Part shown: positions 35,040-59,474 of the stretch, one piece after another | Position numbering within the stretch: position 1 is the stretch's first letter | Layout: every line of letters begins with the position of its first letter | From: Plesiomonas shigelloides | GTDB taxonomy: Bacteria; Pseudomonadota; Gammaproteobacteria; Enterobacterales; CAMTGL01 | Assembly: GCF_900087055.1 (NCBI RefSeq) | Contig: NZ_LT575468.1 | Location: 1,426,001 to 1,490,000 of the forward strand | DNA: 64,000 nucleotides | Direction of reading: 5' to 3' | The notes under the pieces: model-generated | Database searches by the model: none | What the model was told of the DNA's origin: nothing | The model's input: only the letters and a program-made list of their open reading frames with translations | Translations under genes and position numbers: made by a program

Positions 35040-35079
35040 TGCACAATTTCGCATCTCATGCGGCACACTAAATGCAAAC

Positions 35080-35207
35080 TATACCCAAACAACGTGAAGT
35101 TGCAGGTAGGCGGCAAGTGAGTGAATCCCCATGAGCATAGGCAAACTATGTGATTGGGGTGAACGAACGTAGTCAACACCGCTGCAGCTTCAAGTAGGAA
35201 GGGTATA
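35080..35207. repeat. ERIC (IRU) palindromic repeat, full length
   Basis: This 128-bp element has the ERIC termini TATACCCAAA and GGGTATA and the central inverted core GTGAATCCCC ... TTGGGGTGAACG, matching the enterobacterial repetitive intergenic consensus. It sits in the 382-bp gap between ftsK and lolA, which otherwise contains only the hairpin at 34981-35039 and the lolA promoter region. If transcribed with ftsK it would fold into a long hairpin. Confidence 0.92.
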
Positions 35208-39177: not shown

Positions 39178-40002
39178 ATGAATGATCCAGATTTCTTTCT
39201 AGGCACCGACAGCACCGTTCTGTGTGGTTTATTGCTGGCGTTGATGCTGCTGGCATCAGTGATTGGCTTTACGGTCGGGCGCTTGCGCCACAGTGAAGAT
39301 GATACCAATGGTGCGACGGTGCAAATTGAATCTGCGCTATTTGGTCTGCTCGGGCTATTGCTGGCGTTTACGTTTGCAGCCGCGGCGAGCCGTAACGAAA
39401 CGCGCAAAGAGCTGATGGTGGATGCCTCTAACGCCATTGGTACGGTCTATTTGCGTACGTTTCTCTACGAACCACAAACTGGAAGTACGCTGCGGGTGCA
39501 TCTGAAAGACTATCTTGACCAGCGCATTGCGTATTATGACGTGCGCAGTGATATTGCTGCGATTCGGCAGGTATTAGCCAAAACCGATCAGCTACAAAAT
39601 CAGTTGTGGGGGCAGGTGATGCAGGCATCACGTCAACAGGAGCATTATCTGGCATCGATGCAGATGATCCCGGCGATGAATGAGATGTTTGATTTGGCCA
39701 GCAGCCGCCTCTCGTATGATCGCACGCATATCCCCGATATTTTGCTGATAGTCCTCACTATTCAGGCTCTGGCGGCGGCATTTGCGAATGGCTATAACAG
39801 TTCAAAGAGTCGGCACTTTAACTTCTTTGCGTCGATTGGTTTTGCACTGCTCACGGTGATGGTGGTGTACCTGATTTTGGACTTGGATAGACCGCGGCGT
39901 GGCATCCTGAATTTAGATGTGCAGCAGCAACTGTTTACGGAGCTAAGGAGCAAAATGGATGCGGATGCCAAATTAGCTCTGCCTTTCTCAAAGCCGCAGT
40001 AA
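39178..40002 (+). CDS. DUF4239 (bestrophin-like) membrane protein
   Basis: The 274-residue protein appears to belong to the DUF4239 family of bacterial bestrophin-like proteins of unknown function. It shows two hydrophobic helices at the N-terminus (about 14-36 and 51-70), a long hydrophilic, helix-rich segment (about 75-185, with LRVHLKDYLDQRIAYYDVRS), and two more helices (about 188-208 and 213-234), ending in a polar tail. This 2+2 arrangement with a central soluble domain is typical of the family. A GGGGAAG site precedes the ATG. It lies alone between serS and the UmuD-like gene. Channel activity cannot be inferred from the sequence. Confidence 0.75.
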   Translation: MNDPDFFLGTDSTVLCGLLLALMLLASVIGFTVGRLRHSEDDTNGATVQIESALFGLLGLLLAFTFAAAASRNETRKELMVDASNAIGTVYLRTFLYEPQTGSTLRVHLKDYLDQRIAYYDVRSDIAAIRQVLAKTDQLQNQLWGQVMQASRQQEHYLASMQMIPAMNEMFDLASSRLSYDRTHIPDILLIVLTIQALAAAFANGYNSSKSRHFNFFASIGFALLTVMVVYLILDLDRPRRGILNLDVQQQLFTELRSKMDADAKLALPFSKPQ

Positions 40003-40149
40003 CCTAAAAAATATGCTTACGCTCAAACTGTTGCAACGGTTTGCGGATGAGCAGCTTGAGGGTTGGGGTGTATTCATATCAGTAATGAGTGAGTCACTTC
40101 GGCAAGTATAGGTGGGCGGATATGCTACTGTATGAACTGGATAACAATA

Positions 40150-40165
40150 CTGTATATCCATACAG
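40150..40165. promoter_or_regulatory. LexA box 1 upstream of the umuD-like gene
   Basis: CTGTATATCCATACAG is a perfect CTGT-N8-ACAG LexA box, flanked by A/T. A weaker half-site (CTGTATGAACTGGATA, 40128-40143) lies just upstream. Confidence 0.88.
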
Positions 40166-40215
40166 AAAAATGTAAAATTAGGCTTGCAACGAAAGCGGAT
40201 AGTGCTTATCTTATA

Positions 40216-40231
40216 CTGTATAAGTATACAG
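40216..40231. promoter_or_regulatory. LexA box 2 upstream of the umuD-like gene
   Basis: CTGTATAAGTATACAG is a second perfect CTGT-N8-ACAG site inside a near-complete 20-bp palindrome (ATACTGTATA ... TATACAGT). It ends 16 bp before the start codon, so it overlaps the probable transcription or translation start region. Confidence 0.88.
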
Positions 40232-40247
40232 TGCTTGAGAGGCTATC

Positions 40248-40688
40248 ATGGAACTGAGCATTTCCCGACCCGATGATCTGTTCACCTACCGTCCAGTGGC
40301 ATTTTTTAATGATACAGAGTCGTCGTTATTGTCCTCACCGTCTTTGGTGTCTGGCCGGCAGCGTCTTGATCTCAACTTACACTGTATCAAACGACCGGAT
40401 GATACCTTTTTCGTCCGTATCAGCGGTCTGTCGATGGTCGACTCAGGCATTCGTCCAGGCGATATTCTGGTCGTAGACCGTATTTTAGCGCCGAAAAAAG
40501 GTGATTTGGTGGTGATGATGGAGCAAGGCGAAGTCGTGGTGTATGAGTTGCAGGTAAAACCTGAACTGAAATTGCTATCACTGAGCGCCGATCACGCTGA
40601 TCGCGTGGGTATGGAAAGTCTGTCTGAATTGCAGCAGATGGGGCAAGTGGGCATTGTGACCAGCATTATCCATCATATCCGCCAGTGA
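40248..40688 (+). CDS. UmuD-like S24-family protein, catalytic lysine missing
   Basis: The 146-residue protein aligns with UmuD: DLFTYRPVAFF near the N-terminus, then RQRLDLNLHCIKRPDDTFFV, SGLSMVDSGIRPGDILVVDR and the beta-rich core. The nucleophile serine is present (Ser62 in GLSM). The general-base lysine is not: where UmuD has VKKLQ, this protein has VYELQ (Tyr99-Glu100). The usual Cys-Gly or Ala-Gly cleavage dipeptide is also absent from residues 20-40. Self-cleavage is therefore doubtful. Two perfect LexA boxes and a GAGAGG ribosome site precede the ATG, so it should be strongly SOS-induced. No umuC follows; nth lies convergent. A role as a polymerase-V regulator or dominant partner is possible but unproven. 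Confidence 0.82.
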   Translation: MELSISRPDDLFTYRPVAFFNDTESSLLSSPSLVSGRQRLDLNLHCIKRPDDTFFVRISGLSMVDSGIRPGDILVVDRILAPKKGDLVVMMEQGEVVVYELQVKPELKLLSLSADHADRVGMESLSELQQMGQVGIVTSIIHHIRQ

Positions 40689-43943: not shown

Positions 43944-46499
43944 TTATTCCTCACTCGCCTGAGTTTTTGCTTGTTCCTGTGCCGCTTTACGCGCTTTAGC
44001 GCGAGCAATGGCAGCAGCTACCGCCGCTTTACGTGGATCAACCGCTTCCGTAGTGGCATCGCTTGGCGTTGCCGTGCTTTCCACATTCGGCGCTACAGTT
44101 GCCGGCTCGGTGTGATTAACTGCGGAAGTGGTATCAGCACCTTGCTCTTGCGCGGCTTTACGCGCTTTAGCGCGAGCAATGGCAGCAGCTACCGCCGCTT
44201 TACGTGGATCAACCGCTTCGGCAGTGGCATCGCTTGGCGTAGCCGCGCTTTCGGCATTTGGCCCTTCGGTTGCCGGTTCACTGTGATTAACGGCTGCTGT
44301 GATATCAGTACCTTGCTCTTGCGCGGCTTTACGCGCTTTAGCGCGAGCAATGGCAGCAGCTACTGCGGCTTTGCGTGGATCAACTGCTTCCGTAGTGGCA
44401 TCGCTTGGTGTTGCCGTGTTTTCGGCATTCGGCGCTTCGGCTACCGGTTCGTTGTGATTAATGACGGCAGTGGTATCAGTACCTTGCTCTTGCGCGGCTT
44501 TACGCGCTTTAGCACGAGCAATAGCGGCAGCTACCGCCGCTTTACGTGGATCAACCGCTTCGGCAGTGGCATCGCTTGGCGTTGCCGTGCTTTCAGCATT
44601 CGGTGCTACGGTTGCCGGTTCGTTGTGGCTAGCTGCAGCTGTGGTATCAGCACCTTGCTCTTGCGCGGCTTTACGTGCTTTAGCGCGAGCAATAGCAGCC
44701 GCTACCGCCGCTTGGCGTGGGTCGGTGTTCTCACTGCTGTCTGCTACACCAGACGCTGGTGCTGTTGATGACTCCGCATTTTGTTGCGCAGCTTTACGCG
44801 CACGCTGTTCTCGCGCCAGTTGTTTGCGCGCTTCGCGTGCGGCCGCCATGGAGTCATCGGCAACCACAGGCGCACTTTCAGCATCCGGCGTCAGTGGACG
44901 TAATTGTTGAATCGGTTGTGCATCAGCTGACGGTACTGTTGATTCTGGCGCGGCGCTTTGTGCTTGTTTGGCTTTAATACGCGCCAATACCGCTTGTACC
45001 GGATCAACACCTTCGCTGCTGGTTTGTGAGGCGCGACGAGCTTGCGCGGCTTGTTGGGCACGCTGTTCGCGCTCTTCTTTTTCGCGTTGCAGACGTTGTT
45101 GCTTGGCTTCAAAGCGCTGTTTAGCGATTTCAGACTTACGCTCTTCGCGGCGAATCTCCCACAGCTCTGCTTTTTCTTGGCGGTAGTACTGCACCAGCGG
45201 GATGTTGCTCGGGCAAACATAGGCACACGCACCGCACTCGATACAATCCATAATGTTGTATTGGCGCGCTTTGTCATGCTCTTTACCACGGCTGAACCAG
45301 TACAGTTGCTGCGGCAGCAGATTAACCGGGCAGGCATCCGCACAGGAGCTGCAACGGATACAGGCCTGCTCGGCATGCTCTTCGCCAAATTCTGCAGCGC
45401 CAGGCGCCAAAATACAGTTGGTGATCTTCACCACGGGAACGTCCAGATGCGGCAAGCTAAAGCCCATCAGTGGACCACCGATGATGATCTGCCCATTCCC
45501 AGCGGTGCGGCGATAACCCGCGTGGCTCAGCAAGTGCTGCACCGGCGTACCTAAGCGCGCCCAAATGTTACCTTTGTCGTGAATGGCATCACCGGTCAGG
45601 GTAACGACACGCTCGATCAGTGGCTCACCTTCGATAATGGCGCGCTTAATGGCAAAAGCGGTACCGACGTTTTGCATCAACACACCGATCGCCGAGGAGT
45701 GTTTGCCTTTAGGCACTTCCATCCCCGTGAGGATCTTGATGAGTTGCTTGGCACCACCAGACGGATATTTCGTTGGAATAATGCGCAGCTGAATATCTTC
45801 GCTGCCATCAAGGCTTTTACGCAGGCTTTCGATGGCTAGGCTCTTGTTATCCTCAATACCAATGACGACCTGCTCAGGGCGCAGAATATGGCGCAGGATC
45901 CGAATCCCTTCGATGATTTCATCGGCGCGATCTTGCATTAAACGATCGTCAGCGGTGATATAAGGCTCACATTCTGCGGCGTTGATGATCAGCAATTTGA
46001 TCAGGTTTGCGCCGCCGGTGAGTTTGGCTGCGGTAGGGAAGCCAGCGCCGCCAAGACCGGCAATACCTGCCGATCGAATCTTGGCAATCAACTGTTCAGG
46101 GGTGAGCAGATGATAATCTTCAATCTGTTCGCGTTCGACCCACGTGTCGTTGCCATCTGGCTCAATCACCACGCAAAGATCGCTGAGTCCAGAAGGATGC
46201 GCGATGGTGCGCGGCTCGACTGCGATAATCGTACCTGAGGTCGGGGCATGAACGGGCAATATGCGTCCGCCACCATGATACTGCGTCAGCGGCTGTCCTT
46301 TGAGAACCTTTTCACCGGTTTTAACAATCAGATTGCCAGCTTGACCCGCGTGCTGTTGCAGTGGCACGACATAATAGGGCGCCAGATCGATTCGGCGAAT
46401 CGGAGTATTGTTGGATTGTGACTTCATTTCCGGCGGATGGATCCCACCGTCAAAATCCCAAATACGGCCGCTCTGGATGGCCTTAATCACACTGGACAT
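43944..46499 (-). CDS. rsxC: Electron transport complex subunit RsxC with repeat-rich C-terminus
   Basis: The 851-residue peripheral subunit has an N-terminal domain (residues 1-60), an NADH/FMN-binding domain ([30 protein letters not shown]), an SLBB domain and two [4Fe-4S] motifs ([12 protein letters not shown] and [12 protein letters not shown]). After about residue 445 comes a long charged coiled-coil-like tail, ending in five copies of a 23-residue Ala/Arg/Lys unit with a 57-residue period. RsxC is proposed to accept electrons from NADH and pass them to RsxB and the membrane core. E. coli RsxC has a similar but differently built tail. Confidence 0.95.
43971..44723 (-). repeat. rsxC: 171-bp tandem repeats coding the RsxC C-terminus
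   Basis: The block [20 protein letters not shown] followed by QEQ occurs five times at an exact 57-codon spacing, with 34-residue acidic/Thr/Ala spacers ([17 protein letters not shown]) between. The repeats are nearly identical in DNA over much of each unit, so they should be prone to copy-number change by slippage or recombination. Confidence 0.93.
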
Positions 46500-58142: not shown

Positions 58143-58383
58143 TTTTCGGCTATTGATTTGATAAAGCGCAGTAATCGCCTGAATTGCTGTATAAAACAGC
58201 ACTTGCCCTAAGAGAGTGTGATTACCAAAACAATATTCCACATTCTCATTGTCAGTTCGGGGACGCTTTATTTACAATGCGAAGAGACGTTATTTTATTG
58301 TGGTTATGTCGTAACGCACACTCAACGCAGTGGACATTGCCGCCAAAAACTCCGAAGCCGCTTTTGCCTACGTTCTGCAGCAG

Positions 58384-58486
58384 GCTGACTCATTCAGGCA
58401 CACAGAATAGGGCATGACGGCCGTAGCACAGATGATGCTACCGGGTTCGGTGAGAAATTACCGGGCCTCCCGACATTGGAAAGGTG
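58384..58486 (+). ncRNA. Moco RNA motif (molybdenum-cofactor riboswitch candidate) before moaA
   Basis: The 110 bases before moaA contain the elements I recall from the Moco RNA motif found before moaA in enterobacteria: GACTCATTCAGGC, ACAGAATAGGGCATGA, GGCCGTAGC pairing with GCTAC (58423-58427 with 58436-58440), GGTTCGGTGAGAAATTACC and GGGCCTCCCGACATTGGAAA. The last part holds the probable ribosome site GGAAAGG (58478-58484), so ligand-induced folding could hide it. Between the mntH terminator and this element (58143-58383) lie the promoter region and an imperfect CGTTA(N19)TAACG repeat. Confidence 0.85.
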
Positions 58487-58493
58487 TTTTCAG

Positions 58494-59474
58494 GTGCAGC
58501 AACTCAAAGACACGTTTGACCGCGGGTTCTATTACCTGCGTTTGTCGATCACAGATGTCTGCAACTTTCGTTGCAGCTATTGCCTGCCGGACGGTTATCG
58601 GCCGCAGGCGAATACCTCATTTCTGCGCGCCGATGAAGCTCGCCGGATTGCTCAGGCCTTTATTGCGCTGGGCACAGACAAGATCCGTCTGACCGGTGGA
58701 GAGCCGACATTGCGTCGCGACTTTATCTCTATCGCCTCTTCAATTAGCGAATTGCCGGGTTTACGTGCCTTGGCGGTGACCACTAATGGCTATCGTATGG
58801 CCCGTGATGTCCCGCTGTGGAAAGAGGCTGGCATTACGTCGGTGAATGTCAGTCTAGACAGTCTCGACCCACGCCAATTTCATCAAATCACCGGTGAAAA
58901 TCGCTTTAGCCAAGTAATGGCGGGCATTGATGCCGCTTTCGATGCCGGCTATCCGCAAGTGAAAGTGAACACCGTGCTGATGAAAGGCTTAAATGATCAT
59001 CAGCTGGATCAGTTTCTGGCGTGGATCCGCCATCGTCCGTTGCAGTTGCGTTTTATCGAGCTGATGCAAACCGGCGAGATGACTTCGCTATTTCGTGACC
59101 ATCATATTTCTGGCGCGGTGATCCGCGACAAGCTGCTACTCAATGGCTGGCAGCTTAAACCGCGCAGCTACAATGCCGGTCCGGCGCAAGTCTTTACGCA
59201 TCCCGATTATCAGGGCGAAGTTGGCCTGATCATGCCGTATGAGAAGGATTTTTGTGCCAGCTGTAACCGGTTACGGGTTTCGGCGACCGGAAAACTGCAT
59301 TTGTGCCTGTTTGGTGATGATGGCATCCCGCTGCGTGATTTGCTGGAGGATGACCGCCAATTACCTTTACTGCGCCAACGCGTGCAAGATGCTCTACTGC
59401 ATAAAAAGCAGAGCCATTTCTTGCATGAGGGCAATAGCGGTCAGACACCACATTTGGCGTCGATCGGCGGGTAA
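58494..59474 (+). CDS. moaA: GTP 3',8-cyclase MoaA
   Basis: The 326-residue radical-SAM enzyme starts molybdopterin synthesis by converting GTP to a cyclic intermediate. It has the N-terminal cluster CNFRCSYC (Cys23, Cys27, Cys30), [12 protein letters not shown], the C-terminal cluster [18 protein letters not shown] and the essential double-glycine end IGG. I chose GTG 58494 because the protein then begins [20 protein letters not shown], as in E. coli, and GGAAAGG lies at good spacing. An upstream TTG at 58476 overlaps the ribosome site. It heads moaABCDE-modABC. Confidence 0.95.

Follow-up and report, generated by a model that had tools for sequence, protein, structure and literature searches.

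A UmuD-like protein family of Plesiomonas and Pasteurellaceae that appears to have lost self-cleavage

We analyzed a stretch of 64,000 nucleotides of Plesiomonas shigelloides DNA, referred to here as the window, and found that a UmuD-like protein encoded in it, which we call pseudo-UmuD, is the Plesiomonas branch of a family otherwise seen in Pasteurellaceae. Pseudo-UmuD is the product of a working gene, and the sequences of the clade argue strongly that it is non-cleavable. Uncut UmuD of E. coli is mostly regarded as a precursor, whose cleavage switches the cell to mutagenic repair. The whole family, including its Haemophilus influenzae member, has apparently abolished this step and retained the uncut form alone; a stage that is usually brief seems to be the form in which the protein works. 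We put forward, tentatively and as somewhat less than an even chance, that pseudo-UmuD serves nearly all Pasteurellaceae and Plesiomonas as an SOS effector, a former self-cleaving switch that has become a permanent, cleavage-proof control of replication, acts through the N-terminal arm and needs no Y-family polymerase.

Gene, LexA boxes and predicted fold

A preliminary description of this locus had started the feature at position 40128. That position is the beginning of a weak third LexA half-site, and the start codon of the pseudo-UmuD gene lies at 40248. The gene and the boxes upstream of it are as follows.

40128..40143, no strand assigned: third, weak box-like sequence, CTGTATGAACTGGATA, of which only the left half is recognizable, missed by consensus scans
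40150..40165, no strand assigned: LexA box 1, CTGTATATCCATACAG, exact core CTGT-N8-ACAG
40216..40231, no strand assigned: LexA box 2, CTGTATAAGTATACAG, exact core CTGT-N8-ACAG
40248..40688, + strand: pseudo-UmuD open reading frame (S24 fold, self-cleavage residues lost), ATG start, 146 amino acids; from Pfam and NCBIfam matches, alignment to UmuD and an AlphaFold model with the UmuD'/LexA fold

The two perfect LexA boxes reported earlier (40150-40165 and 40216-40231) stood, while the weaker site could be recognized in its left half only. When the window was scanned with a 20-base LexA consensus, allowing up to 3 mismatches, boxes 1 and 2 were the only matches in the 64 kb, where 0.02 would be expected by chance. 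Of 95 distinct upstream regions of family genes, 87 had a CTG-N10-CAG box between −150 and +60 relative to the first ATG, and 51 had at least two, compared with a LexA-type box in 1.8% of 1,557 control windows.

The Pasteurellaceae copies appear to be annotated “ImpA,” after a plasmid UmuD homologue. Because there is one UmuD-like gene per Pasteurellaceae genome, the “impA” genes of H. influenzae and Pasteurella multocida very probably belong to the pseudo-UmuD family. In published arrays, P. multocida “ImpA” was induced 4.55-fold by enrofloxacin, alongside lexA, recA, and recN (PMC2966327), and impA is among the listed SOS genes of H. influenzae (PMC6957337). The two boxes of the window gene, the conservation of such boxes upstream in the family and the induction of the P. 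multocida gene all agree with the SOS control proposed earlier for this locus. LexA would repress the gene through the two boxes, and DNA damage would release its expression. The name ImpA implies a cleavable mutagenesis protein and an ImpB polymerase, neither of which is present with pseudo-UmuD, and our results suggest that it is a misleading annotation across Pasteurellaceae.

The UmuD homology of the product was borne out, in that it has an S24 fold and its best sequence and PDB matches were UmuD. It matched Pfam Peptidase_S24 with an E value of 4.5e-15 but scored below the cut-offs of the NCBIfam models, reaching 79.3 bits against the UmuD model PRK10276 (cut-off 110) and 47.6 bits against the HumD equivalog model (cut-off 120). 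The protein has no LexA-type N-terminal DNA-binding domain; its S24 core follows only about 40 residues, most of them disordered. AlphaFold models of the window protein and of the H. influenzae protein had mean pLDDT values of 74.9 and 75.6, respectively, with about 84 to 93 in the core and a low-confidence arm in both (about 32 to 60). These models matched UmuD', RecA-bound UmuD and the LexA C-domains, from which pseudo-UmuD is predicted to fold like UmuD' and the C-terminal part of LexA. The window model matched UmuD' (1ay9) with a Foldseek E value of 2.3e-7 and RecA-bound UmuD (8gmt) with a VIA Z score of 9.8 (rmsd 3.4, 96 aligned), and the H. influenzae model matched 1umu_B with a Z score of 11.1 (rmsd 3.4, 105 aligned). 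At lower Z scores, the Foldseek/VIA list also included signal peptidases and Raf1, which we read as sharing a common fold only.

Active site and cleavage site across the family

Alignment of the window protein to E. coli UmuD places Ser62 at the position of Ser60 and Tyr99, followed by Glu100, at the position of Lys97. The corresponding positions in the window are as follows.

40314..40361, + strand: linker, codons 23-38 (Cys24-Gly25 cleavage site in UmuD), without an [AC]-G dipeptide
40431..40433, + strand: Ser, codon 62, at the place of UmuD Ser60; the sister species has Gly and Pasteurellaceae have Asn, Asp, or His
40542..40547, + strand: Tyr-Glu, codons 99-100 (UmuD Lys97-Lys98); Tyr or Phe in 94 of 94 family sequences, Lys in 13 of 13 canonical UmuDs

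Loss of the catalytic lysine, with Tyr99-Glu100 in its place, and the lack of a cleavage dipeptide had both been noted in the window protein, whose arm holds no [AC]-G at all, and both extend to its relatives. Among 94 distinct family sequences, the Lys97 column is Tyr in 91 and Phe in 3, and an [AC]-G dipeptide was found in the arm of none, as against all 13 canonical UmuDs of a control set. The Ser60 column holds Asn (76 sequences), Asp (10), His (6), Gly (1), or Ser (1), while Ser and Lys are both present in 13 of 13 controls. The sole serine is that of the window sequence. The preliminary description was thus right to place Ser62 at the Ser60 position of this copy, but not to regard it as a kept nucleophile, since the residue is already Gly in the sister species. 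A second active-site lysine was looked for and no conserved one was seen: the Lys/Arg columns conserved in the family, at residues 39 and 48 of the window protein, lie away from the Ser/Lys region. A Lys does occur two residues before the Tyr in the Pasteurellaceae branch that diverges most, but there the Ser is gone as well. The inability to self-cleave that was suspected for the window protein is therefore backed by the whole clade, with Lys and dipeptide absent from 94 of 94 sequences and Ser from 93 of 94, and, judged from these sequences, is highly probable. Because the Lys, the dipeptide and, family-wide, the Ser are lost, RecA should be unable to turn pseudo-UmuD into a UmuD'-like activator.

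Distribution, selection and the N-terminal arm

Of 139 Pasteurellaceae genomes, 137 carried pseudo-UmuD in a search with a profile built from four members. A scan of the genome collection returned 54 loci, one from Plesiomonas and nearly all others from Pasteurellaceae; the sampling of Plesiomonas comprised one species besides one metagenome-assembled genome (two sequences). No members outside Plesiomonas and Pasteurellaceae were found at E ≤ 1e-25 among 369 Gammaproteobacteria genomes, and the high-scoring outsiders that were inspected among 394 genomes of the order were canonical UmuDs with Ser and Lys. One record titled Pseudomonas stutzeri (NCTC11607; L062) carries a Rodentibacter/Haemophilus-like copy beside an sstT-like gene and is probably mislabelled. 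The family was monophyletic with respect to canonical UmuD (support 100/99), and Plesiomonas was sister to Pasteurellaceae, a split at which the tree tool warns of long branches meeting. At 51 of 53 Pasteurellaceae loci the gene shares a divergent neighbor, an sstT-like symporter gene named from its sequence. Gene order common to Plesiomonas and Pasteurellaceae was sought and none was found; at one Rodentibacter locus, serS lies several kb from the pseudo-UmuD gene. A mobile origin was rejected, as there was no phage match and the plasmid matches listed were UmuD/ImpA annotations of less than 60% identity.

Purifying selection was indicated by a median dN/dS of 0.08, taken over the 59 pairs whose dS lay from 0.1 to 0.9. 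The loss of the catalytic residues, a Ser column that differs between lineages, and the presence of a frameshifted copy in one species and a rearranged copy in another might be taken as signs of a decaying, functionless UmuD duplicate. This is extremely improbable, given a dN/dS of about 0.08, frames that are intact in nearly all of the 139 genomes and the conservation of operator and gene position. These two Pasteurellaceae copies, L121 and L114, look broken: the copy in G398 is frameshifted, and in that of G384 unrelated sequence has taken the place of the 5' half, close to a truncated match to dinB.

The N-terminal arm, which a normal UmuD discards, carries a motif under tight selection.

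40287..40313, + strand: arm motif YRPVAFFND, codons 14-22, near-invariant in 93 sequences; aligned with UmuD 12-20 (T14/L17/F18)

The family consensus is Y-x-P-[MIL]-P-[FL]-[FY]-x-D, with Tyr in 89, the first Pro in 92, the second Pro in 90 and Asp in 91 of the 93 sequences. Mean column entropy of the motif is 1.03 in Pasteurellaceae versus 1.95 in canonical UmuD, and the order is reversed in the cleavage-site linker (1.85 versus 0.91), which is shortened from 16 to 7-10 residues in 83 of 91 Pasteurellaceae sequences. Both Plesiomonas sequences retain a 16-residue linker. The motif does not fit the canonical clamp-binding Q-x-x-L-F; in E. coli UmuD, T14, L17, and F18 hold the arm on the globular domain (PMC5342242). 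The position of UmuD Asn41 in the dimer interface, a change of which gives monomeric UmuD (PMC5342242), is invariant in the family, and dimerization is therefore probably kept.

Candidate functions and known relatives

Full-length UmuD of E. coli binds the Pol III alpha subunit and the clamp and disrupts the alpha-beta contact, an effect weakened by deletion of its first 17 residues (PMC5342242), and it restrains DinB and UmuC (PMC5342242, PMC3901139). We consider it quite possible, only just short of an even chance, that pseudo-UmuD is a permanently uncut UmuD that acts through its arm on the clamp/Pol III and, where present, DinB. Like E. coli UmuD2, the arm may dock on the replisome (the beta clamp or Pol III alpha), and on DinB in genomes that have it, and the docked protein may slow DNA synthesis or keep it in check while the SOS response lasts, without a later mutagenic switch. 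Against a locked, uncleaved regulator of the replisome stand the low model confidence of the arm, a motif unlike the canonical clamp-binding one, the narrow sampling of Plesiomonas and the retention of Ser62 in the window copy. In addition, the checkpoint activity of E. coli UmuD was reported jointly with UmuC, a protein missing from most Pasteurellaceae.

Y-family polymerases were found in 133 of 139 Pasteurellaceae genomes, nearly always as a single gene of DinB size. Only 2 of the 139 have a gene of UmuC size, and it accompanies a true umuD that is distinct from pseudo-UmuD. A search for PF00817 found no Y-family polymerase in six Pasteurellaceae genomes (G439, G440, G245, G445, G459, and G283), among them H. 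influenzae HI-5290, H. aegyptius NCTC8502, and Lonepinella koalarum, all of which keep an intact pseudo-UmuD copy. Because these six carriers have none, a target outside the Y-family polymerases is needed; a role confined to DinB or to UmuC is unlikely, and the replisome or RecA has therefore to be considered. A dedicated manager of DinB, which would bind Pol IV, suppress frameshift mutagenesis as E. coli UmuD2 does and replace the lost UmuDC, would suit the near-ubiquity of DinB-sized polymerases in Pasteurellaceae and the known UmuD2-DinB interaction (PMC3901139). It would also suit the one genus, matching Aggregatibacter (G358, G148, G367, and G401-G404), in which dinB is a close neighbor of the pseudo-UmuD gene, about 3 kb away or less and on the opposite strand. 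Yet H. influenzae, H. aegyptius, Lonepinella, and others have an intact copy and no Y-family polymerase, and constraint in the Haemophilus group is undiminished, as strong as elsewhere (dN/dS of about 0.05 to 0.10), which makes this reading rather unlikely.

Canonical umuDC, searched for across the Plesiomonas genome, was found at about 913 kb. Its UmuD has Cys-Gly, Ser, and Lys, and the same genome encodes one DinB-sized and one UmuC-sized Y-family polymerase, LexA, and two phage-repressor-like S24 proteins. The preliminary description had offered restraint of Pol V or of the beta clamp, or mixed dimers with a cleavable UmuD encoded elsewhere, as examples of what the protein might do. As a dominant-negative partner, pseudo-UmuD would form mixed dimers with the cleavable UmuD of its own genome and restrain Pol V. 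The co-occurrence of canonical UmuD and UmuC and the kept dimer-interface Asn are in line with this for Plesiomonas, where mixed dimers or Pol V restraint may be an added role. They cannot be what the family does in general, since UmuC and a second UmuD are both missing from most Pasteurellaceae carriers, and six lack Y-family polymerases altogether. As the explanation of the gene, a dominant-negative partner is decidedly improbable.

Alternatively, a dead UmuD could sit uncut in the groove of activated RecA filaments and compete with LexA or with recombination partners, as a damper in SOS feedback. SOS-induced dampers are a known regulatory logic. Such a ligand requires no polymerase, which fits the six carriers that lack Y-family enzymes, and the predicted fold is close to that of RecA-bound UmuD and LexA (8gmt, 8gms). 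UmuD crosslinks to RecA at positions 34 and 81 (PMC5342242), and conservation of the stretch 76-96, which includes position 81, is lower in the family (mean entropy 1.85) than among canonical UmuDs (1.03), which leans mildly against a RecA ligand. The near-invariant arm motif would also be left unexplained, and we regard this reading, too, as unlikely.

Among known proteins, pseudo-UmuD is closest to UmuD itself, the regulatory subunit of Pol V (NF007621/PRK10276, PF00717), with which it shares the S24 fold, the arm, LDLN, the dimer-interface residues and LexA-type boxes. It differs in having no Lys97, cleavage dipeptide or umuC partner, in the family-wide loss of Ser60, in scoring below the UmuD model cut-off and, in Pasteurellaceae, in its shortened linker. 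It is a natural counterpart of the engineered non-cleavable UmuD variants (S60A or K97A), which are likewise full-length and fixed in the uncut state; unlike these, it has lost the cleavage site as well, its arm motif is strengthened, and it has evolved and been kept for its own sake. HumD, the UmuD' homologue of phage P1 (NF051876), is another member of the UmuD family without self-processing. HumD, however, is UmuD'-like and has no arm, whereas in pseudo-UmuD the arm is the conserved part. UmuDAb of Acinetobacter still self-cleaves. It resembles pseudo-UmuD in being a UmuD homologue turned to regulatory use, but it represses DNA-damage genes through an N-terminal domain of its own (PMC4807011), and pseudo-UmuD has no DNA-binding domain. 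We found no published description of a family-wide loss of UmuD self-cleavage; key papers on the H. influenzae SOS regulon lay outside this search, and priority is uncertain. Should it pay to keep the uncut form by itself over so long a time, and without a translesion polymerase, its separate checkpoint role would be directly testable in a simple background. Our results also suggest that the Pasteurellaceae damage response follows different rules.

In the window, the pseudo-UmuD gene is solitary, with a Bestrophin-like gene upstream (39178-40002, +) and nth downstream on the other strand; as described previously, no umuC adjoins it, nor is there one elsewhere in the window. The names nth and serS were assigned from sequence. 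The Bestrophin-like gene sits between serS and the pseudo-UmuD gene; it is absent from the sister Plesiomonas species (L007), in which the pseudo-UmuD gene directly follows serS. Elsewhere, the window holds a match to Rfam V_AS5 (Vibrio RNA AS5) at 35079-35203 (+), barely over the gathering score and here in a Plesiomonas genome, and a molybdenum-cofactor (Moco) riboswitch aptamer at 58338-58502 (+; 72.3 bits). An RnfC-like protein encoded at 43944-46499 (−) has a C-terminal part made up of several near-identical alanine-rich repeats, which are a candidate for strain-to-strain variation in repeat number.
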